The notes under the pieces were generated by a model that was not told the origin of the DNA, did no database searches, and was given only the letters and a program-made list of their open reading frames with translations. DNA of 34,781 nt from assembly GCF_003352915.1 (NCBI RefSeq), contig NZ_CP022314.1:3138851-3173631 (forward strand), written 5' to 3'. Made by a program: the position numbers and the translations under genes. Positions 2,947 to 17,443 of this stretch are shown here, piece by piece (the stretch's first letter is position 1; each line of letters opens with the position of its first letter). The stretch is from Arthrobacter sp. PM3 (GTDB lineage: Bacteria; Actinomycetota; Actinomycetes; Actinomycetales; Micrococcaceae).

Positions 2947-4008
<1,062 letters not shown>

Positions 4009-4010
4009 CA

Positions 4011-6554
4011 GTGCGTATCCCCCTTTCCTGGCTGCGCGAATTCGCGCAGGTCCCGGCCGGCGCGAGCGCCGAGGACGTCATGGCCGAACTCGTCAAAGTC
4101 GGTTTTGAAGAAGAAGCAGTCCACCGCCCTACGGACACCCTCCAGGGCCCGATCGTCGTGGGCCAGGTGCTCAGCATCGTCAAGGAGCCCCAGTCCAACG
4201 GCAAGACCATCAACTGGTGCCAGGTCCGGGTGGTCCCCGAGGGCCGGGAGCAGACCCTGACCGGCGACGGCATCGACCCCTCCGGCGTGCAGGGCATCAT
4301 CTGCGGCGCGCACAACTTCGTCGAAGGCGACAAGGTGGTGGTCACCCTCCCCGGTGCCGTGCTGCCCGGCGACTTCCACATTTCCGCGCGCAAGACCTAC
4401 GGCCACCTCTCCGCCGGCATGATCGCCTCCGTGCGTGAGCTCGGCATCGGGGAGGACCACGACGGCATCCTGGTGCTGTCCCGGATCGGCCTGGACCCCG
4501 AGCCGGGCACCGACGCCATGGAACTGCTGGGCCTCTACGACCAGGCCGCCGAGATCAACGTGACCCCGGACCGCGGCTATGCCTTCTCTATTCGCGGCGC
4601 GGCCCGCGAATACGCACACGCCACCGGCACCGCGTTCACCGACCCCGCATCGAAGGTGCAGGCCCCGGACGTGCTCTCCGGCGGCTACGGCGTCAAGCTC
4701 AACGACGACGCCCCCATCTACGGCAAGCCCGGCTGCGACCGCTTCGTGGCCCGCACCGTCCGCGGCGTGGACGCCACCCGGCCCACCCCGCCGTGGATGA
4801 CCGCCAGGCTCCGGCTCGCAGGCATCCGCTCGATCTCCCTGCCGGTGGACATCTCCAACTACGTCATGCTTGAGCTCGGGCAGCCGAACCACTGCTATGA
4901 CCTCGACAAGCTGGCCGGCGACATCGTGGTGCGGCGCGCCACCGCGGGGGAGAAGATCACCACCCTGGATGACAAGGAGCGCACGCTCGACGCCGAGGAC
5001 CTGCTGATCACGGACGACTCCGGACCCATCGGGATTGCCGGCGTCATGGGCGGCGCCCACACCGAGGTCTCGGACTCCACCACGAACATCCTGGTCGAGG
5101 CCGCGCACTTCGACGAAGTCTCGATCGCCCGCTCGCGCCGCCGCCACAAACTGCCGTCCGAGGCGTCGAAGCGCTTCGAACGCGGCGTGGACTGGCAGGT
5201 GGCCGGAGTCGCAGCCCAGCGGGTCGTGGACCTGCTGGTCGAGCTCGCCGGCGGGACGGCCGACGAGGCCGGGACCGACGTCGGGACGGCGCCGGACGCC
5301 GTCACCATCGAACTGCCGGCAGGATACGCCGCAGCCCGGATCGGGATCGACTTCACCGAGGACCACATCGTCACCGCCCTCGAGGACCTGGGCGCCGTCG
5401 TCGAGGAAAACGGCACCGGCCACACGGTGACCGCCCCGAGCTGGCGCAACGACCTCGAAACCCGGGACGACCTCACCGAGGAAATCGCCCGCCTGGTCGG
5501 CTACGACAAAATCCCGGCAACCCTGCCGGTGGCACCGCCGGGCCGCGGCCTGACCCGCATCCAGCAGCAGCGCCGCCGCCTGATCCAGGCCCTCGCCGAT
5601 GCCGGACTCACCGAAGTGCTCGCCTACCCGTTCGTGTCCAAGGCCGCCAACGACACCTTCGGTGTCCCGGCCGAGGGCGCCGAACGGACGGCGCTCAAGC
5701 TGGCCAACCCGATCAGCGAGGAGCACGGCTTCCTGCGGACTTCGATCCTGCCGGGCCTGATCGAGGTGGCCAAGCGCAACCACTCCCGCGGGTTCCGCGA
5801 CCTCGCCCTTTTCGAGGCCGGAAGCGTGTTCCTGCCCGGCGAACAGCTGGGAACGGCCTCGATCCCGCCGCTCGGCGTCAAGCCGGGCGATGAGGTGCTG
5901 GAGGCCCTGTACGACGGCGTTCCGGACCAGCCGCTGCACGTCGCCGCGGTGTTCACGGGTCACGACTCGCCGGCCGCCCCGGGCCACACTCCGCGGGCCT
6001 GGGACTGGGCGGACGCCCTTGACGTTGCCCGGCTCGCCGGCGACGTACTCGGCGTCGAGCTTCTCGTCACGCAGGGCCGCCACCAGGCGTTCCACCCGGG
6101 CCGGGCCGCGCAAATCGAACTGCGCACCGGCGAAGTGGTGGGCTACGCCGGTGAACTCCACCCGAAGCTGCTGGCGGCCTACGACATGCCGGCCCGCTCC
6201 GTGGCGCTGGAGCTGAACGCCGATGCGCTCTTCGACGCCGCTGCCGACGTGATCGTCGCCCGGCACATCTCCACGTACCCGGTGGCCACCCAGGACGTCG
6301 CCCTCGTGGTGCCGCAGGATGTCCCGGCCGAAGAGGTGCTCACGGCGCTGCGCGACGGCGCCGGCGAATTGCTCGAGGATGTCGCCCTGTTCGACGTCTA
6401 CGCCGGCAAGGGCATCGAGGACGGCAAGAAGTCGCTGGCGTTCAGCCTGCGGTTCCGCGCCGCCGACCGCACCCTGACGGCGGACGAGGCATCGGCGGCA
6501 CGTGAGGGTGCCGTGGCCGTTGCCTACGAACGCTTCGGGGCGGTGCAGCGCTGA
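4011..6554 (+). CDS. pheT: Phenylalanyl-tRNA synthetase beta subunit
   Basis: Beta subunit of PheRS, 847 residues, starting with GTG at 4011 (MRIPLSWLREF, the usual family start). Domains in order: B1/B5 core, the OB-fold tRNA-binding domain (GPIVVGQVLSIVKEP, about residues 45-165), the B3/B4 editing region with RSRRRHKLPSEASKRFERGVD, a B5 helix-turn-helix region near LEDLGAVVEENGTG, the inactive class II-like core (RNDLETRDDLTEEIARLVGY, SRGFRDLALFEAGSVF) and a C-terminal anticodon-binding FDX-ACB domain (HISTYPVATQDVALVV to the end). Nothing is missing compared with other bacterial PheT proteins. Confidence 0.97.
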   Translation: MRIPLSWLREFAQVPAGASAEDVMAELVKVGFEEEAVHRPTDTLQGPIVVGQVLSIVKEPQSNGKTINWCQVRVVPEGREQTLTGDGIDPSGVQGIICGAHNFVEGDKVVVTLPGAVLPGDFHISARKTYGHLSAGMIASVRELGIGEDHDGILVLSRIGLDPEPGTDAMELLGLYDQAAEINVTPDRGYAFSIRGAAREYAHATGTAFTDPASKVQAPDVLSGGYGVKLNDDAPIYGKPGCDRFVARTVRGVDATRPTPPWMTARLRLAGIRSISLPVDISNYVMLELGQPNHCYDLDKLAGDIVVRRATAGEKITTLDDKERTLDAEDLLITDDSGPIGIAGVMGGAHTEVSDSTTNILVEAAHFDEVSIARSRRRHKLPSEASKRFERGVDWQVAGVAAQRVVDLLVELAGGTADEAGTDVGTAPDAVTIELPAGYAAARIGIDFTEDHIVTALEDLGAVVEENGTGHTVTAPSWRNDLETRDDLTEEIARLVGYDKIPATLPVAPPGRGLTRIQQQRRRLIQALADAGLTEVLAYPFVSKAANDTFGVPAEGAERTALKLANPISEEHGFLRTSILPGLIEVAKRNHSRGFRDLALFEAGSVFLPGEQLGTASIPPLGVKPGDEVLEALYDGVPDQPLHVAAVFTGHDSPAAPGHTPRAWDWADALDVARLAGDVLGVELLVTQGRHQAFHPGRAAQIELRTGEVVGYAGELHPKLLAAYDMPARSVALELNADALFDAAADVIVARHISTYPVATQDVALVVPQDVPAEEVLTALRDGAGELLEDVALFDVYAGKGIEDGKKSLAFSLRFRAADRTLTADEASAAREGAVAVAYERFGAVQR

Positions 6555-6597: not shown

Positions 6598-7275
6598 ATG
6601 GCATCACACCTCGTTGTGCGGGCCTGCCCGCCCTTTCGCGTCCCGGGCGACGAGCGGGCGCTGCTGGACGGCCCGGAACTGGAGCGGGCGCAGGCCATGG
6701 CGGCGCGGACCCGGGAGGATTTCCTCGCCGGGCGGGTGGCGCAGCGGCGGTTCGCTGCCGGGCTGTTGGGCGTGGAGGCGTCGGACCTCACCGCCTGCTA
6801 CAGCTGTCCCCGTTGCGGCACGGGCGCGGAGATCTCCCACGGCCGGCCCGGCTACCTGCTCCGGGGCGCGCCCGCCCCGCTGCTGCTCAGCCTGTCCCGC
6901 GCGGCGGGATGGACCCTGCTGGCCGGAGTCGTGGACCCGGACCCGGGCCTGCGCCTGGGCATCGACGCCGAGGACCCGGCGCGGACGGACTTCGAGGGAT
7001 TCGATGCCGTGGTGCTGACCCCGGCGGAACAGGCGGACCTCGCCGGCCTGCACGGTGCCGCACTGCTGCGCGGCCGCGCCCGGCTGTGGGCGCGCAAGGA
7101 GGCCTGGCTCAAGATGACCGGCACGGGCCTGCGGACGGCTCCGAACACCGTCGACGTCCGGCAGGACGGCCAGGACGGTCCCGCCGGCCGCCCCGGACTT
7201 CGGGACCTCCCGGGGTCTGAAACCGGACTGCCGGCGGAGCTGGTCGCCGCCGTCGCCCTGGCGGTCAATTCCTGA
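6598..7275 (+). CDS. 4'-phosphopantetheinyl transferase, Sfp-type
   Basis: A 225-residue enzyme expected to transfer the phosphopantetheine arm of CoA to a carrier-protein serine. The signatures are LGIDAED (Mg-binding Asp123 and Glu125) and WARKEAWLK (residues 164-172, with the conserved Lys-Glu pair and following Lys). Upstream, CYSCPRCG and LLLSLSRAAG match the Cys-x-x-Cys-Gly and fNLSHs-like positions of Sfp-type enzymes. ATG 6598 follows GAAAGGGCGGG, a good ribosome site, only 43 nt after pheT, so it probably shares the pheST transcript. The gene converges on the M1 peptidase/NRPS transcription unit; the NRPS at 8752-12735 contains a carrier domain and is the obvious local substrate. The C-terminal 40 residues are Gly/Pro-rich and variable. 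Confidence 0.88.
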   Translation: MASHLVVRACPPFRVPGDERALLDGPELERAQAMAARTREDFLAGRVAQRRFAAGLLGVEASDLTACYSCPRCGTGAEISHGRPGYLLRGAPAPLLLSLSRAAGWTLLAGVVDPDPGLRLGIDAEDPARTDFEGFDAVVLTPAEQADLAGLHGAALLRGRARLWARKEAWLKMTGTGLRTAPNTVDVRQDGQDGPAGRPGLRDLPGSETGLPAELVAAVALAVNS

Positions 7276-7318
7276 GAGACGAGCTTCAACAGACGAGCCT
7301 GACAGTCCGTCCCCAGGC

Positions 7319-8701
7319 TTAGCCGGCCACTCCCGGCACAGGATGCGGGAACGGCGGGAGCCGCTCCTCGAACAGCCACGGGTGCAGCAGCGCCTCGGCG
7401 TCGATACCCGTGGTGTGGCCGGCCGCGATGATGAAATCGGCCGTGGTCACGGTGCCGTGGCGGAATCGGTCCGTCCAGTCGTGGAGCAGGGCGAAGAACG
7501 CAAGGTCGCCGCAGCGTACCCGCAGTGCGTGCAGGGCCAGGGCACCGCGCTTGTAGACGCGGTCGTCGAACATCAGCGCCGGCCCGGGGTCGCCCACCAC
7601 CAGGTTCTGTGCGATGCCGGAAAGTTTGCGCCAGGCGGCGCGGGCCCGGCCGTCCACCGTCATCACCCCGGCCTCCTCGGACCAGAGCCACTCCGCGTAG
7701 CAGGCGAAGCCCTCGTGCAGCCAGATGTCCCGCCACGTGGCCGTGGTGAGCGAGTTCCCGAACCACTGGTGGGCGAGTTCGTGGGCGACCATGCGCTGTG
7801 ATTCCCAGTCCTGTCGCAGGTGATTGGGACCCAGGATGGACAGCGTCTGTGCCTCCAGGGGGATTTCCAGCACGTCCCCGGTGACCACCACGGTGTACTC
7901 CGGGAACGGATACGGCCCAAAGCAGTTCGTGAAGGTCCGCATCATGCCGGGCTGGCGGGCCAGCCCGGCCAGGGCGTTCGCCGCGAGCGACGCCGGGACC
8001 GCCACATACTGCGGCACGTGCCCCGACGGCCGCTCGGCATTGAGCGTCAGGAGTTCGTAGCGCCCGATCTGGACTGTTGCCAGGTACGTGGCCATCGGTT
8101 CGGCCTGCTCGTACACCCACGTTTCGCGGCTGGCCCTGCGGGTGCGGGAGAGCAGCACCCCGTTGCAGACCGCCCGGTAGTTCGCATCCGTGGTCACCGT
8201 GATGCGGTAGCTTGCTTTGTCCCGCGGATGGTCGTTGCACGGAAACCAGGAGGCGGCGCCGTTGGGCTGCCCGGCCACCAGCACGCCGTCGGAAAGCTCC
8301 TCCCAGCCCACTTCGCCCCACAGGCCGCGGCGCGGCGCCGGGTAACCCTCGTAGCGGATGTCCAGCGTGAAGGCCTCTTCGGCCAGCAGCGGCACGTCGG
8401 GGTAGATCACCAGCTGCTCGGCCCGCTGGGTGAACCTGCGCACCCTGCGGCCGTCGAGCTGGATCTTGGTGGCCCGCAGCCCGGTCAGGTCCAGCACAAT
8501 CGCCGACGTCGGAAGCTGCGTCATGGCGTGCAGGACGGCGTGGCCGGCCAGGCGGTTGCTGCTCACCCGGTAGTCCAGATCGAGTTCGTACCGGGAGACC
8601 CGGTACGCGTTGGTGCCGTGGCCGGGCATGTACGGATCCGGCGCGCCGCTGTCTGGTGTGCCACTGCTGGGTGCGCTGCTGCTGGTTGCGCTGGTGCTCA
8701 A
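7319..8701 (-). CDS. Compact M1-family zinc aminopeptidase
   Basis: Predicted metallopeptidase removing N-terminal residues from peptides. With the TTG start at 8701 it has 460 residues, roughly half of aminopeptidase N: the N-terminal beta domain and catalytic domain are present, and the C-terminal helical domain is absent. HELAH at 307-311 with Glu330 (in HEGFA, 18 residues further on) forms the gluzincin zinc site, and the Tyr in DRVYKRGAL is likely the catalytic Tyr. The exopeptidase motif GxMEN is replaced by PLEAQT (281-286), as in some actinobacterial members. GAAGG lies 10 nt before the TTG; the alternative ATG at 8629 (MPGHGTNAY) lacks a good site. There is no signal peptide. The gene starts 50 nt after the NRPS stop on the same strand, suggesting co-transcription and possible processing of that enzyme's product. 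Confidence 0.87.
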   Translation of the reverse strand: MSTSATSSSAPSSGTPDSGAPDPYMPGHGTNAYRVSRYELDLDYRVSSNRLAGHAVLHAMTQLPTSAIVLDLTGLRATKIQLDGRRVRRFTQRAEQLVIYPDVPLLAEEAFTLDIRYEGYPAPRRGLWGEVGWEELSDGVLVAGQPNGAASWFPCNDHPRDKASYRITVTTDANYRAVCNGVLLSRTRRASRETWVYEQAEPMATYLATVQIGRYELLTLNAERPSGHVPQYVAVPASLAANALAGLARQPGMMRTFTNCFGPYPFPEYTVVVTGDVLEIPLEAQTLSILGPNHLRQDWESQRMVAHELAHQWFGNSLTTATWRDIWLHEGFACYAEWLWSEEAGVMTVDGRARAAWRKLSGIAQNLVVGDPGPALMFDDRVYKRGALALHALRVRCGDLAFFALLHDWTDRFRHGTVTTADFIIAAGHTTGIDAEALLHPWLFEERLPPFPHPVPGVAG

Positions 8702-8751
8702 TGGAGAAAAACCTTCGGGTCGTGGTGCTGGTGGACGTGCGCGGACCGGGC

Positions 8752-11700
8752 CTAGCGGGGGCCGGCGGGCGGGGCCGGCCCGTCCCACGGGCTGACCGGG
8801 TTGCCCATCCAGTACGTCCCGGCAGGGACGGTTTCGCCCCGCATCACGAGGGAAGCCGGCCCCACCGTGCCGCCGCTGCCGATCCTCGCCTGCGGCAGGA
8901 TCACGCCGTGCGGGCCCATGGTGGCTCCGTCATCGAGCGTAACAGTGTCGATGCTCATCACCCGGTCGTGGAACAGATGGGTCTGGACGACGCACCCGCG
9001 GTTGACGGTCGAGTTCCGGCCCAGCGTGACAAGGTCGGCCTCGGGCAGCCAGTAGCTCTCACACCAGGTGCCGGCGCCGATCTTCGCGCCGAGCGCCCGC
9101 AGCCACCACACCAGCGCGGGGGTGCCCGTGGCCGCGCGGGCGAACCATGGTGCGCTGACCATCTCGATGAAGGTGTCCACCACTTCGTTCCGCCAGATGA
9201 AGGAACTCCAGAGCGGGTGCTCGCCGGCGTGGATCCGCCCCACCAGGAGCCACTTGGCCACGACCGCACTGGCGGCGGCCGTCGCCCCGGCCAGCAGGAC
9301 CACCACTCCGCCCAGGACAGCCGCCACCGCGTAGCTGAAGGTTGCCGCCAGCGTGTCAAAGGCGACCATCACGCCGACGGCGATCGCCACCGTCAGCATG
9401 ACCGGGACAAACCGGCACAGCTCCCACAGGGTCCGCGCGACCTTCAGCCGCACGGGCGGCTGGTAGGTCCGGGTGTCGTCGGAGGCGATCGCGGTGCGCC
9501 GCAAGCGGACCGGCGGGCTGCCCAGCCACGAGGTGCCGGACTTTGCCTTGGCCGGCGTCGCCGAGAGGACCGCGACGAGGGAGTTCTTGGGCACGTTGCG
9601 GCCGGCAGCCGTCATGCCCGAGTTGCCCAGGAAGGACCGCTTGCCGATCTTTGCCGGCGCAATCCGCATCCAGCCGCCGTCCAGTTCGTAGGAGGCCACC
9701 ATGGTGTCGTCAGCCAGGAACGCGCCTTCGCCCACGGTGGTCATCCGGGGGATCAGGAGCACGGTCGACGCCTCGACGTTGCGGCCCACTTTCGCGCCAA
9801 GGAGCCGGAGCCAGACGGGGGTGAAGAGGCTCGCATAGACCGGGAACAGCAGGTCCCGGGCCAGGTCCAGCACCCGCTCGGTTGCCCATACCTGCCAGCC
9901 GATCCGGCTGCGCACCCGGTAGTAGCCTTCGGCGAGGCCGATGCTAAGCAGGCGCGTCGTGGCCAGGACCAACAGCAGATTGGTCAGGAACCACACCAGG
10001 GCCGCCAGGGGCACCGACAGCACCAGGCCGGGCAGGGCCGCGGACAAGGAGGAGCTGCCCCGGATGAACGCGAAGATCACCAGGGCCGCTGCGGCGGCCG
10101 AAACATAGGGAATGAGAGCCAGCACCGCCGACGCCGCGGCGAACCCGGCAAACCACAGCCGGCCGGTCAGCCGATGCCCGGCGGCGGGAGGCTCCGGCCA
10201 CGAGCGTCGGGCCTTGCCCCGGCGTTCCGCCGGCGACCCGGCCACCAGCTGCCCGGCCTTGACCTTGCCCATCACCGCGGACCCCGGCTCCACCTGCGCT
10301 CCGGCGCCCACCGTGGCTCCCGGCATCAGGGTACTGCGCGCCCCGACGCTGGCACCGGGGCCGATCCGGATGGCGCCGATGTGGACGCGGTCGCCGTCGA
10401 TCCACCAGCCGGAGAGGTCCACTTCCGGTTCGATGTTGGACCCGGCGCCCAGGGTCAGCAGCCCCGTGACAGGCGGCAGCGAATGCAGCTGGACGTTCTC
10501 GCCGATCTTCGCGCCCAGCGCCTTGGCGTAGTAGGGCACCCAGGGCGCGCTGGCCAGGCTGATCGCGCCGGCGAGGTCCTGGATCTGCTCCGCGAGCCAG
10601 AGCCGGATGTGCACCTTGCCGGAGCGAGGATACGTTCCGGGTCCGACGTTGCGCAGCAGGATGCGGGCCGCGGCAATGGAGATCATCATCCGCCCGGCGG
10701 GACTGACAAAGACGAGCCAGGACGCACCGATCCACCACCACGAGATGGTCGGCGCGGCACTGAATCCGGCGAAGGCGGCCAGAAGGTTGTTGGCAGCCAT
10801 CAGGTACGTCAGCCAGCGCATGCCGACCAGGATGTGCAGGGGGATACCCATGAGGGTCTGGAACGCCTGTGACCTGCGCGCCGTCGGCCGGACGGTGCGC
10901 TCCTGCGCGGGGACCGGGCCGCCTTCGGGCAGGGACTGGCGCGCCGCATCCACCAGGGCACCCACCCGGGGGGTCGCGTAGATATCGGCCACCGTGATGG
11001 TGGGGTAGCGGACCCGGAGGGCGGAGACGAGCTGCGCGGCGGCCAGCGAGCCGCCCCCGTAGGCGAAGAAGTCGGCGTCGAGGCTGGTGACCGGGCTGCC
11101 CAGCACAGCGCTCCACTGCTCCACGATCCACTGCGCGTCCTCCGGCAGGTTCAGCGGGGCGCCCTCGGCCTCGGCGGCTCCGGCGCCGCTGAGCGGCCAG
11201 GGCAGGGCGTGCCGGTCCACTTTGCCGCTGGTCTTGGTTGGCAGCGAGTCCACGAGCGTCAGGAGCGGGATGAGGGGAGCCGGAAGGCTTTCGCCCAGCA
11301 GTTCGCGGGCGGCCGCGAGGTCGATGTCATTGCCCGAGGCGGAGGCCAGGTAGCCGACAAGGATCTGGTTGCCGGCCGCCGTCGTCTGCACGGCGGCCGC
11401 GGCCCCGGCGACGTCCGGCAGCGACTGCAGGGCGGCGTCGATTTCCCCGAGTTCAATCCTGCGGCCGCCCAGCTTGACCTGCTCATCGGCGCGGCCCTGG
11501 AAGATCAGGCCCTCGGCCTCGTACTTCACGAGGTCGCCGGAGCGATAGGCACGCGCCCAGCCCAGCGACGGCATGGGGGCGTACTTCTCGGCATCCTTGG
11601 CCGGATCGAGGTACCGGGCCAGCCCCACACCGCCGATGATCAGTTCGCCCACGTCACCTTCGGCCACGGGCACGGAATCGGCGTCGACGACGGCGAGGTC

Positions 11701-12735
11701 CCAGCCGTCCAGCGGCAGTCCGATCCTGACGGGGCCGGGGCCGCCCAGCCGGGCGGCGCACGCGACGACGGTGGCCTCGGTGGGGCCGTACGTGTTCCAC
11801 ACTTCCCGGCCCTCGACGGCGAGCCGCTCGGCCAGGTCCGGGGGACAGGCCTCGCCGCCGAAGATCAGCAGGCGGACGCTTTCCAGCGACTCGACGGGCC
11901 ACAGCGCGGCAAGCGTGGGGACGGTGGAAACCACGGTGATGCCGTGGCTGATCAGCCACGGCCCGAGGTCCATCCCGGTCCGGACCAGCGCCCGGGGCGC
12001 CGGCACGAGGCACGCGCCGTGGCGCCAGGCGAGCCACATCTCCTCGCAGGAGGCATCGAACGCCACGGACAATCCGGCCAGCACCCGGTCCTGCGGTCCC
12101 ACCGGTTCGTCCTGGAGGAACAGGCGGGCTTCGGCGTCCACGAACGCGGCGGCCGAACGGTGCTGCACGGCAACGCCCTTGGGCGTCCCGGTGGATCCGG
12201 ACGTGAAGATCACCCAGGCGTCGTCGTCGGGACCTGCCGGCCTGGCCGCCGGGAACGGCCGGGGATGCCTGCTGTCCGTGACGATCTTCCCGCCGGCGCG
12301 CAGGATGCCGGAGACCCGGGCCTCGCCGAAGACCAGTTTGGCGCGCTCGTCCGGATCGTCGGCATCCACCGGAACATAGGCCGCACCGACCAGCAGCACC
12401 GCCAGGATCGAGATGTAGAGCTCATTGGTGCCGGACGGGATGCGGATCCCGATCTTGTCGCCGGCGCCCAGCCCCGCCGCGTGCAGCTTCCGTCCCGTTG
12501 CCCGGACCTCGTGCATGAGCTGGGCGTAACTGAGGGACCGGTGGCCGTCGTCGAGCGCGGACGCATCGGGGAACCGGGCGGCGGTCTCATGGAGGATCTT
12601 CATGAGCGTCCGCTCCGGCGGGGCGGCCAGCGAGCCCGGGAGCTGGGGCGCGTGGACGGGGATCCCGGCGGCTTCCGCGGGCTGCGCCGCAGCGGCGTCG
12701 GGGGTCTTACTCGGGGTCAGCTGTTGCTCGGTCAC
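8752..12735 (-). CDS. Pls/PosA-family single-module NRPS (cationic poly-amino-acid synthetase-like)
   Basis: A 1327-residue membrane-anchored synthetase. Domains: adenylation about 45-515 (IFTSGSTGTPKGV 176-188, FDASCEEMW 226-234, NTYGPTE 314-320, YRSGD 397-401, TSGKVDR 502-508); carrier domain about 535-600 (FFAYGGGSL, Ser563 for phosphopantetheine); then two membrane helices (about 628-695), soluble domain 1 (735-835), two helices (857-927), soluble domain 2 (975-1075), two helices (1105-1162) and soluble domain 3 (1208-1315). Each soluble domain starts with an L-G-A-K-I/V-G motif and has hexapeptide-repeat-like turns. This is the layout and size of epsilon-poly-L-lysine synthetase (Pls, about 1320 residues) and PosA. 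The residues at the specificity positions read D-A-E-S-I-G-T-V-V-K; the Glu suggests a basic amino acid. There is no classical condensation (HHxxxDG) or thioesterase domain. Start GTG 12735 has AGGGA upstream. The product is inferred, not shown. Confidence 0.9.
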   Translation of the reverse strand: MTEQQLTPSKTPDAAAAQPAEAAGIPVHAPQLPGSLAAPPERTLMKILHETAARFPDASALDDGHRSLSYAQLMHEVRATGRKLHAAGLGAGDKIGIRIPSGTNELYISILAVLLVGAAYVPVDADDPDERAKLVFGEARVSGILRAGGKIVTDSRHPRPFPAARPAGPDDDAWVIFTSGSTGTPKGVAVQHRSAAAFVDAEARLFLQDEPVGPQDRVLAGLSVAFDASCEEMWLAWRHGACLVPAPRALVRTGMDLGPWLISHGITVVSTVPTLAALWPVESLESVRLLIFGGEACPPDLAERLAVEGREVWNTYGPTEATVVACAARLGGPGPVRIGLPLDGWDLAVVDADSVPVAEGDVGELIIGGVGLARYLDPAKDAEKYAPMPSLGWARAYRSGDLVKYEAEGLIFQGRADEQVKLGGRRIELGEIDAALQSLPDVAGAAAAVQTTAAGNQILVGYLASASGNDIDLAAARELLGESLPAPLIPLLTLVDSLPTKTSGKVDRHALPWPLSGAGAAEAEGAPLNLPEDAQWIVEQWSAVLGSPVTSLDADFFAYGGGSLAAAQLVSALRVRYPTITVADIYATPRVGALVDAARQSLPEGGPVPAQERTVRPTARRSQAFQTLMGIPLHILVGMRWLTYLMAANNLLAAFAGFSAAPTISWWWIGASWLVFVSPAGRMMISIAAARILLRNVGPGTYPRSGKVHIRLWLAEQIQDLAGAISLASAPWVPYYAKALGAKIGENVQLHSLPPVTGLLTLGAGSNIEPEVDLSGWWIDGDRVHIGAIRIGPGASVGARSTLMPGATVGAGAQVEPGSAVMGKVKAGQLVAGSPAERRGKARRSWPEPPAAGHRLTGRLWFAGFAAASAVLALIPYVSAAAAALVIFAFIRGSSSLSAALPGLVLSVPLAALVWFLTNLLLVLATTRLLSIGLAEGYYRVRSRIGWQVWATERVLDLARDLLFPVYASLFTPVWLRLLGAKVGRNVEASTVLLIPRMTTVGEGAFLADDTMVASYELDGGWMRIAPAKIGKRSFLGNSGMTAAGRNVPKNSLVAVLSATPAKAKSGTSWLGSPPVRLRRTAIASDDTRTYQPPVRLKVARTLWELCRFVPVMLTVAIAVGVMVAFDTLAATFSYAVAAVLGGVVVLLAGATAAASAVVAKWLLVGRIHAGEHPLWSSFIWRNEVVDTFIEMVSAPWFARAATGTPALVWWLRALGAKIGAGTWCESYWLPEADLVTLGRNSTVNRGCVVQTHLFHDRVMSIDTVTLDDGATMGPHGVILPQARIGSGGTVGPASLVMRGETVPAGTYWMGNPVSPWDGPAPPAGPR

Positions 12736-12783
12736 TGGCGCATTGTCCCTGCAGGAGATGAACGGAAGGTAGTGCCGTGCGGC

Positions 12784-13749
12784 CTAGGGGACCAGGATGA
12801 CTTTGCCGGTGGTGCGGCGCTGTTCGAGGTCCTCATGGGCGTCGGCTGCCTCGCCCAGGGAGTAGCGGGCGCCGATCCGGACGTTGAGGCTGCCTGCTGC
12901 TGCAGCGGCAAAGACCTCGTCGGAGCGCCAACGCCGTTCCCGGGCGTCGCGAAGGTAGTGGCCCATGGTGGGCCGTGTGAGGAAAAGCGAGCCGCCGGCG
13001 TTGAGGCGTTGCGGGTCGAACGGCGGCACCGGACCCGAAGCCGCGCCGAAGAGCACCAGCATGCCCCGGACGCGCAGCGACTCCAGGGAGGCATCGAAGG
13101 TGTCCTTGCCGACGCCGTCGTACACCACGTCCGCGCCGGTGCCGTCCGTCAGTTCCCGGACCCGCCCGGCGAAGCCGACGTAGCGCAGCACGTGGTCGGC
13201 GCCGGCTCCGCGGGCCAGTTGTTCCTTCGCGTCCGTGGAGACCGTCGTGATGACGCGGGCGCCCCGGGCCTTGAGCAGCTGGATCATGAGCAGGCCGACG
13301 CCGCCAGCGCCAGCGTGCAGCAGCACGGTGTGGCCGGGCTCCACCTTGAACGTGGAATTGATCAGGTAGTGCGCCGTCACGCCCTGCAGCGGCAGCGCGG
13401 CGGCGGTGAAATCGTCCAGGCCGTCCGGCACCGGGAGGGCTTTGTCCTCGTCGATGAGGGCGTAGCCTGCGTAGCAGTTGATGCCTTCCGCCGTCGCCAC
13501 GCGGTCGCCGGGCGCGAACCCGGTGACGCCGTCGCCGACTTCCTCCACGGTGCCTGCGGCCTCGGAGCCCGGCGTGAAGGGGTAGCTGACCTTGTAGACT
13601 CCGCCGCGCTTGTAGGTGTCAATGAAGTTCACACCCGCGGCGGCGACCTTGATCAGCAACTGGCCGGGCCCGGGGACGGGACGCTCCGTTTCGGTGAGCT
13701 CCAGGACCTCAGGTCCACCGGCGCGGCGGGCGACGATCGCGTGCATCAT
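12784..13749 (-). CDS. Zinc-independent quinone oxidoreductase (zeta-crystallin-like MDR)
   Basis: NADPH:quinone reductase family, 321 residues, the full family length. The N-terminal GroES-like domain contains AAAGVNFIDTYKRGGVY and PFTPGSEAAGTVEEVG; the Rossmann domain contains LLHAGAGGVGLLMIQLLKA (about 143-161), typical of Qor. No structural or catalytic zinc cysteines are seen. The start ATGATG at 13749 follows AGGAG, and TAGGAT near 13795-13800 is a plausible -10. The stop is 48 nt before the NRPS GTG, so it may be the first gene of the leftward qor-NRPS-peptidase unit; any biochemical link to the NRPS is unknown. Confidence 0.92.
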   Translation of the reverse strand: MMHAIVARRAGGPEVLELTETERPVPGPGQLLIKVAAAGVNFIDTYKRGGVYKVSYPFTPGSEAAGTVEEVGDGVTGFAPGDRVATAEGINCYAGYALIDEDKALPVPDGLDDFTAAALPLQGVTAHYLINSTFKVEPGHTVLLHAGAGGVGLLMIQLLKARGARVITTVSTDAKEQLARGAGADHVLRYVGFAGRVRELTDGTGADVVYDGVGKDTFDASLESLRVRGMLVLFGAASGPVPPFDPQRLNAGGSLFLTRPTMGHYLRDARERRWRSDEVFAAAAAGSLNVRIGARYSLGEAADAHEDLEQRRTTGKVILVP

Positions 13750-13908: not shown

Positions 13909-15012
13909 CTAGTACCGGCGGGTGACGGTCGCCATCGGGCATTCGAAGTGGCGGCCCGCGGCGAGTCCGACGTCGTTGAGGTAGCGGACAATGATGGCGT
14001 AGGACTGCATCAGGGTGGTTTCCGTGTAGGGAACCTGGTGCGTGGCGCAGTACTCGCGGACGATCCTGGCGGCCTTGTCCAGCTGGGGACGGGCCATGTC
14101 CGGGAAGAGATGGTGTTCCGCCTGGCGGTTCAGGCCGCCGAGCAGGATGTCCATGAAGAGGCCGCCGGAGATATTCCGTGACGTCAGGACCTGCCGGCTG
14201 AAGAAATCCACCCGGCTGTCCGCCGGCAGGACGGGCATGCCTTTGTGGTTGGGCGCGAAGGACGCCCCCATGTAGAAGCCGAAGACGGCCAGCTGGACGC
14301 CGATGAAGGCGAACGCCATGCCCAGGGGCAGGAAGCTGAAGGCGAGGACCGGCAGCAGGCTGAGCCGGACCGCGAGGATGGGGATTTCAACCCAGCGGTG
14401 CGTGACCTTGGCCCGGCGGACGATGAATTTCACCGAATCGATCTGCAGCCCCAAACCCACCAGGAACAGGAGCGGGAAGAAGAACCAGCCCTGTTTGCGG
14501 GTCAGGAAGGCGAAGCGCCCCTTCCGGTCGGCCACGGCTTGAGTGTGGAAGGCGATCGGGCCCGGCGCAATGTCCGGATCCTTGGAAATGACGTTCGGGT
14601 GGTTGTGGTGCGCGCCGTGCTTCTGCTCCCACCAGGAGTAGCTGATGCCGGCCACGGACGTGGCGAGCAGCCGGGCTGCCCAGTCGTTGGCGCGGCGGGA
14701 CGCGAAAATCTGGCGGTGGCCGGCCTCGTGGGCCAGGAAACTCAGCTGCGTGCACAGGATGCCCAGGGCGGCAGCGATCAGGAGCTGGAACCAGCTGTCA
14801 CCGATGAGCGCGAAGCCGAACCAGGTGGCGGCCATCAGCAGCACGAGGCTGGCGAACAGGGTGATGTAGAAGCCGACGCGCCGTTCAAGGAGGCCGGCCG
14901 TCTTCACGCTCTTCAGGAGTTCCGAATAGCTCAGGACGACGGCGTTCGGTTGCCGCACGCGGGCTGGCGGACGCCCCGGCGTTTGAGCGGGAAGGGTGGA
15001 AGTGGCAGTCAT
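13909..15012 (-). CDS. Membrane fatty-acid (acyl-CoA/acyl-lipid) desaturase
   Basis: A 367-residue integral membrane di-iron desaturase. The three histidine boxes are intact: HEAGH at 95-99, HGAHH at 132-136 (followed by NHPN) and QAEHH at 297-301. Hydrophobic segments flank them (about 48-72, 76-93, 176-192, 212-250). The QxEHH third box without a fused cytochrome b5 domain is like actinobacterial DesA3/linoleoyl-CoA-type desaturases, which introduce a double bond into membrane acyl chains using a separate reductase. Double-bond position cannot be predicted. The ATG at 15012 begins MTATSTLPAQ. The gene is divergent from argC, with 236 bp between; no clear promoter or cold-response element was identified on its side. 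Confidence 0.92.
   Translation of the reverse strand: MTATSTLPAQTPGRPPARVRQPNAVVLSYSELLKSVKTAGLLERRVGFYITLFASLVLLMAATWFGFALIGDSWFQLLIAAALGILCTQLSFLAHEAGHRQIFASRRANDWAARLLATSVAGISYSWWEQKHGAHHNHPNVISKDPDIAPGPIAFHTQAVADRKGRFAFLTRKQGWFFFPLLFLVGLGLQIDSVKFIVRRAKVTHRWVEIPILAVRLSLLPVLAFSFLPLGMAFAFIGVQLAVFGFYMGASFAPNHKGMPVLPADSRVDFFSRQVLTSRNISGGLFMDILLGGLNRQAEHHLFPDMARPQLDKAARIVREYCATHQVPYTETTLMQSYAIIVRYLNDVGLAAGRHFECPMATVTRRY

Positions 15013-15134: not shown

Positions 15135-17443
<2,309 letters not shown>

Follow-up and report, generated by a model that had tools for sequence, protein, structure and literature searches.

A probable three-gene unit for epsilon-poly-L-lysine production in Arthrobacter sp. 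PM3

Pls, the synthetase for the antimicrobial polymer epsilon-poly-L-lysine (ε-PL), is known from Streptomyces and Corynebacterium to be paired with a peptidase, and Arthrobacter and other coryneforms have been reported to contain Pls homologues (PMC8117764). In Streptomyces albulus, PldII is reported to be the principal ε-PL degrader, encoded by a gene that shares 4 bp with pls (PMC4361855, PMC9223678). Corynebacterium variabile carries the same gene pair without detectable ε-PL in culture, yet ε-PL is made in Streptomyces coelicolor from its synthetase gene when the pls promoter of S. albulus drives expression (PMC8117764). Here we analyse a stretch of 34,781 nucleotides from Arthrobacter sp. 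PM3 (the window; G000:C1:3138851-3173631), which is part of a single-contig genome of 4.35 Mb. The window encodes a Pls-type synthetase, an M1 peptidase and a 4'-phosphopantetheinyl transferase (PPTase) side by side. Judging from its sequence, this locus is very probably an ε-PL production unit composed of these three genes.

Synthetase and peptidase of the locus

An earlier reading of the window, made from the letters of the DNA (the sequence-only reading), gave correct coordinates and gene calls for Pls, the M1 peptidase, the PPTase and a quinone oxidoreductase. Its interpretation, namely a Pls-type synthetase with an adjacent peptidase of the degrading type and a dedicated-looking PPTase, is supported by our results. 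The reading frames of all three genes are open in the window.

Pls (8752..12735, minus strand) had been described as a single-module non-ribosomal peptide synthetase (NRPS) of 1327 residues with adenylation (A) and carrier domains, and its matches to AMP-binding, one PP-binding and TIGR02353 agree with this description. The TIGR02353 model, “Pls/PosA family non-ribosomal peptide synthetase”, is matched over positions 2-695 of 695 by residues 625-1314, and the score of 702 bits clearly exceeds the cut-off (423). The carrier motif, DFFAYGGGSL, starts at residue 555. The protein thus consists of an A domain, one carrier and a terminal domain of ~700 residues, and has no condensation or thioesterase domain, which is the composition of the Pls/PosA family.

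In a simple hydropathy scan, the C-terminal part of Pls exhibits two strong hydrophobic pairs (~860-932 and 1102-1165, with values of 2.2-2.4), and the segments at ~628-692 are weaker (1.3-1.4). The latter, the first transmembrane pair, were missed at a threshold of 1.6, and the lower threshold that revealed them also revealed an extra peak at 962-980 (1.41) of equal strength. The six membrane helices of the sequence-only reading are therefore compatible with the hydropathy scale, in that two strong pairs and one weak pair are present, but given the extra peak the scale does not prove their number. The three soluble stretches that accompany the three pairs are mutually related, as had been proposed (z = 20.5, 14.0 and 9.0 in local alignments compared with 300 shuffles), and this combination is again that of the Pls/PosA family. 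The equivalent region of PosA has been modelled as a single domain with approximate threefold symmetry and left-handed beta-helices, with which a Hexapep match in the window Pls agrees (PMC10522769).

The ten code positions of Pls were located by alignment with the PheA/PosA numbering, and the PheA offsets were compared with the residues given for PosA (PMC10522769). They read DAESIGTVVK. An alignment of the A domain to PDB 7WEW, “Epsilon-poly-L-lysine synthase”, spans residues 34-517, scores 659 bits and has identical residues at all ten code positions. The same code occurs in 80/80 loci of a survey of named genomes, which comprises the best 80 of at least 592 confirmed matches, includes many Arthrobacter and partly overlaps with our survey of the genus. 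Of 20 other loci of the genus, sampled among those in which the peptidase and PPTase genes are adjacent, 19 share it; in the twentieth (L075), the frame is broken and the code is unreadable. Among the matches listed in the named-genome survey, the closest to the window synthetase is that of Arthrobacter sp. ES3-54 (92%). At code position 2, Ala goes with lysine, Met with ornithine (PosA) and Phe with the diaminopropionate (Dap) and diaminobutyrate (Dab) enzymes (PMC10522769). Because the window Pls has the Ala of lysine-type enzymes, L-lysine is its predicted substrate. The code equals that of 7WEW and differs from that of PosA (PMC10522769), and because it is the code of lysine-type Pls enzymes, the “cationic polymer” of the sequence-only reading can be narrowed to ε-PL.

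The M1 peptidase (7319..8701, minus strand) has 460 aa and lies 50 nt downstream of the synthetase, as previously noted, if it starts at the TTG at 8701. A start at the GTG at 8788 would give 489 aa and an overlap of 37 nt with Pls. The protein has a HELAH-18-E zinc site and matches Pfam M1 and M1_N. Of two M1 peptidases encoded immediately behind Pls, one in a Kitasatospora plasmid record is 51% identical to it and one in a Streptomyces plasmid record 43%. An M1 peptidase is found downstream of Pls in 80/80 named-genome loci, and this position behind pls, together with the M1 zinc site, marks the protein as PldII-like.

A phosphopantetheinyl transferase beside the pair

The PPTase (6598..7275, plus strand) converges with the synthetase and peptidase genes, as the sequence-only reading had stated, and begins 43 nt past pheT (pheS-pheT, 2947..6554, plus strand). 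Its start is at 6598 or at a GTG at 6502, which gives a 257-aa frame; residues 152-230 of that frame match PF01648 with 47 bits. Such an ACPS-superfamily match, in a protein that has ~220-250 aa and is not AcpS, corresponds to a Sfp-type PPTase. Elsewhere in the genome, PF01648 matches only one frame, of 118 aa. Five frames match the carrier family PF00550: one that we took as AcpP, Pls, a second synthetase described below, one of 122 aa and, over part of its length, one of 861 aa. Only two of these, Pls and the second synthetase, are Pls/PosA-type synthetases. The idea that the PPTase activates an ordinary NRPS is unsupported, in that the condensation domain PF00668 was found in 0/25 genomes examined, our own included; polyketide synthases were not searched for.

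We surveyed 150 species genomes of the genus. The terminal-domain family of the synthetase occurs in 123 of them, the PPTase in 123 and the M1 peptidase in 124. The synthetase family and the PPTase are held by the same 123 genomes, all of which also hold the M1 peptidase. The extra genome (G142) has only weaker M1 matches (best 1.1e-47) and neither of the other two genes. This coincidence was established by script for 118 genomes and from the genome table for the other five; synthetase positions cover 118/123 genomes, while G052, G072, G102, G128 and G131 are known from the genome table only.

The genes are also neighbours. A same-strand peptidase occurs <400 bp downstream in 113 of the 150 synthetase loci entered (111 genomes), and in five more the peptidase is split or barely outside the 400-bp limit. 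The PPTase lies within 15 kb in 104 of the 113 loci with a Pls-M1 pair, of which 98 have it at ~1.4-1.65 kb, right behind the peptidase, and 99 have it in the opposite orientation. This count leaves out G142, M1 paralogs of ~35-43% identity, small fragments of M1 and any additional PPTase match that was weaker or fragmentary. The neighbours accordingly do not vary at random among relatives: the sets of 123 genomes coincide and the clustering is far beyond chance. Among the genus genomes examined, no Sfp-type PPTase occurs without a Pls/PosA-type synthetase, with one possible exception. Of 20 genomes without the unit that were fetched, 19 have a single PF01648 match, which we took as the essential AcpS.

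In the named-genome survey, we counted a PPTase as near Pls if it was ≤6 kb downstream or ≤1.6 kb upstream, using a profile built from 18 genus sequences. By this definition, 36/46 Micrococcales loci have one, distributed over Micrococcaceae (29/36), Microbacteriaceae (7/8) and Brevibacteriaceae (0/2). The loci of other orders, which include the Rhodococcus locus L134, number 34 and are taken up below.

The site in the window lies between pheS-pheT and the arginine genes, with the order PPTase (plus), M1 peptidase, synthetase, quinone oxidoreductase and desaturase (all minus). We fetched this site from 20 of the 27 genus genomes without the unit. In 20/20, the gene after pheT is the quinone oxidoreductase, and the interval contains no match to the PPTase, peptidase or synthetase. 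The gap measures ~80-170 bp in 16 cases and holds ~0.9-1.6 kb of other sequence in four, one of which is transposase-like to the eye. Mutually similar open frames fill the ~0.9-1.6 kb at the unit's position, between pheT and the oxidoreductase, in L060, L066 and L067. Because it is retained at all 20 empty sites, the quinone oxidoreductase (12784..13749, minus strand) is a bystander outside the unit. The sequence-only reading had put this gene at the head of the unit, as either a passenger or a supply enzyme; the same 20 sites settle it as a passenger, and a role in supply is rejected. Farther to the right are a fatty acid desaturase gene (13909..15012, minus strand), whose presence varies among relatives, and argC (15243..16280, plus strand), the first of the arginine genes.

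On a tree of four flanking proteins, built from 36 of 41 loci (five were left out for incomplete genes), presence or absence of the unit changes eight times across the 36 rows. At least five of the eight changes are forced by branches with ≥95% support in the approximate likelihood ratio test SH-aLRT, a quick method. The three genes thus came or went together repeatedly, and the oxidoreductase does not follow them.

Some units have moved or lost a part. Twenty unit-bearing genomes were drawn at random from 102 loci in which the M1 and PPTase genes were already adjacent, so this sample is uninformative on the frequency of adjacency. The unit is behind pheT in 17 of them and elsewhere in the other three (L078, L083 and L088); in these three, the peptidase still has a PPTase of 39-47% identity next to it, inverted in two cases. 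G018 has lost the home Pls between the oxidoreductase and the peptidase, and in G094 this gene is reduced to pieces matching residues 1-86 and 1205-1299. Both genomes keep the peptidase and the PPTase, and each has another synthetase elsewhere that is 49% identical to the window Pls and has the lysine-type code DAESIGTVIK; no peptidase match was found beside these second synthetases within the fetched stretch. This pattern fits a peptidase and a PPTase that act in trans.

Given these observations, the three proteins would work together as follows. The PPTase would load phosphopantetheine onto the carrier domain of Pls, as its co-occurrence suggests, and the A domain, according to its code, would activate L-lysine for transfer to the carrier. 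The terminal domain, embedded in the membrane, would then link lysines successively by isopeptide bonds from the alpha-carboxyl to the epsilon-amino group, and the polymer would exit the cell, both as known for Streptomyces Pls. The M1 peptidase may shorten or destroy the product, and its role would most likely be self-protection, which has been postulated for PldII. The PPTase would be a private activator that probably serves the second synthetase of the genome too. PosA has been loaded in vitro with Sfp (PMC10522769). Paper searches pairing PPTases with polylysine, of whose listed papers PMC4361855 was examined, yielded no description of a link between a PPTase and Pls, nor did word checks of PMC8117764 and PMC12067966. 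The words phosphopantethein, PPTase and Sfp are absent from the main text of PMC8117764, and in PMC4361855 a PPTase term occurs in a list of enriched gene classes.

More generally, we consider it reasonably probable that Arthrobacter and other Micrococcales encode ε-PL synthesis in a self-contained cassette of three genes. The cationic homopolymer synthetases would then be the reason that a Sfp-type PPTase exists in these organisms; gain, loss and replacement of the PPTase would go along with theirs, and a second synthetase elsewhere could share a single PPTase and a single peptidase.

Alternative explanations

Several observations weigh against a dedicated three-gene unit. A PPTase is near Pls in 0/34 loci of other orders, a count in which the profile could miss distant PPTases. 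Within Micrococcales, 10/46 loci have no PPTase within the fetched stretch (two of them with <3 kb downstream), and among the 36 positive loci the match of L157 is weak (21 bits) and that of L130 is ~4.4 kb away. In the genus, the PPTases of G002, G091, G128, G137 and G140 are only distant (39-41%) and away from the Pls-M1 pair, the PPTase and M1 genes of G102 are far apart, and the PPTases of G047 and G139 are 11-14 kb away. G099 lacks the synthetase and nevertheless contains a further PF01648 match besides the one taken as AcpS, located in a 231-aa frame. The 861-aa frame with a PF00550 match in our own genome could be another client of the PPTase; similar frames also occur in genomes without a detected Sfp-type PPTase. 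Finally, a hydropathy scan of the window peptidase found no hydrophobic segment, while PldII was reported on the outer side of the membrane (PMC9223678).

The PPTase might be a housekeeping enzyme that merely adjoins Pls, which we regard as improbable. It is encoded just behind pheT and in opposite orientation to Pls, it is still beside pheT in G014, G080 and G129, where Pls is on another contig, and it was not detected beside Pls in the 34 loci outside Micrococcales. However, no PPTase match at E 1e-5 occurs in the 27 genomes without the synthetase family. Moreover, in L078, L083 and L088 the Pls-M1 pair is away from the pheT site, yet a PPTase adjoins it, and in L118 and L120 a PPTase is on the opposite side of Pls. 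There is very little likelihood that the window enzyme makes another polymer, from ornithine, Dab, Dap or beta-lysine. The code DAESIGTVVK makes ornithine, Dab or Dap unlikely substrates: its chain-length position holds Ala, as in lysine enzymes, instead of the Met of PosA or the Phe of Dap/Dab enzymes (PMC10522769). Likewise, no dat/ask, sbnA/sbnB or aminomutase gene was seen among the neighbouring window genes scanned. What speaks for another product is that several diamino acid polymers are made within the Pls/PosA family (PMC10522769) and that the same genome encodes a synthetase with a different code.

It is also conceivable, if rather unlikely, that the genes are mostly silent, or that the unit serves a non-antimicrobial end, e.g., a short surface-bound oligomer that affects adhesion. 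The synthetase gene of C. variabile is functional but silent in its own host (PMC8117764), the unit is patchy across the genus and biofilm was modestly increased in a posA knockout (PMC10522769). On the other hand, the three window genes are open and the synthetase family is widespread among the species genomes. An ε-PL production unit of Pls, M1 peptidase and PPTase is thus the reading that we retain. The clean empty sites, as well as G018 and G094, which kept the peptidase and PPTase after loss of the home Pls, are natural experiments on how the parts depend on each other.

Further synthetases and comparison with known systems

Arthrobacter species widely hold Pls/PosA-type synthetases, as the survey of the genus indicates (123/150 genomes), and the second one of our own genome (G000:C1:3994263; L039:8063-12346, minus strand) has 1427 aa and is 28% identical to the window Pls. 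Its code is DFECLSVVTK, and it adjoins genes for an aspartate kinase and a diaminobutyrate-2-oxoglutarate transaminase (L039:8063-15214; G000:C1:3994062-4001213). These two gene types are named in a gene-context comparison that includes poly-Dab synthetases (PMC8117764, figure 1 legend). A literature search found nothing further on the poly-Dab gene context, which is therefore taken from that legend. On these sequence features, the same strain probably encodes both ε-PL and poly-Dab synthesis. An M28 peptidase gene lies beyond the poly-Dab-type cluster (L039:15644-16675) and near the same cluster in L044, L178, L179 and L188; it could be the poly-Dab counterpart of the M1 peptidase of ε-PL.

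Some relatives of the strain have a split form of the family; at L042:5335-15398, a protein with three tandem carriers and a Pls-type terminal domain, without an A domain, is followed by a separate A-carrier protein. SbnA, SbnB (diaminopropionate), TauD and LuxE genes are also present in this cluster, and similar synthetase parts occur in L045, L052, L186 and L187. Clusters of this type possibly make a Dap-based product. PPTases that are 39% identical to that of the window lie near a poly-Dab-type or split cluster, and not near Pls, in L178 (14991-15569) and L045 (11131-11628). This linkage is apparently independent.

Compared to the described systems, a locus of the Pls-PldII type for ε-PL is known in kind, and what is added here is a PPTase that looks dedicated and the exclusion of the oxidoreductase from the unit. 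As a practical hint, Pls of Micrococcales is usually accompanied by a PPTase, which is possibly needed in heterologous expression. The window Pls has the same domain order as Pls of S. albulus and, relative to the A-domain structure 7WEW, the same ten code residues in the 659-bit alignment. It differs from the S. albulus system in host and locus, with a PPTase beside the pair in the Arthrobacter window. As for PldII, a peptidase gene adjoins pls in both organisms, but the window has the 50-nt gap (or 37-nt overlap) in place of the 4-bp overlap (PMC4361855); the likeness refers to the M1 peptidases of Streptomyces and Kitasatospora Pls records rather than to the sequence of PldII itself. PosA of Acinetobacter baumannii, which makes delta-poly-L-ornithine, belongs to the same synthetase family, but has another substrate and the code DMEHNGTVSK (PMC10522769). 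The Pls-peptidase operon of C. variabile consists of the same gene pair as the window (PMC8117764); a PPTase is not mentioned in the main text of that report, and the genus-wide pattern of presence and absence is new here.

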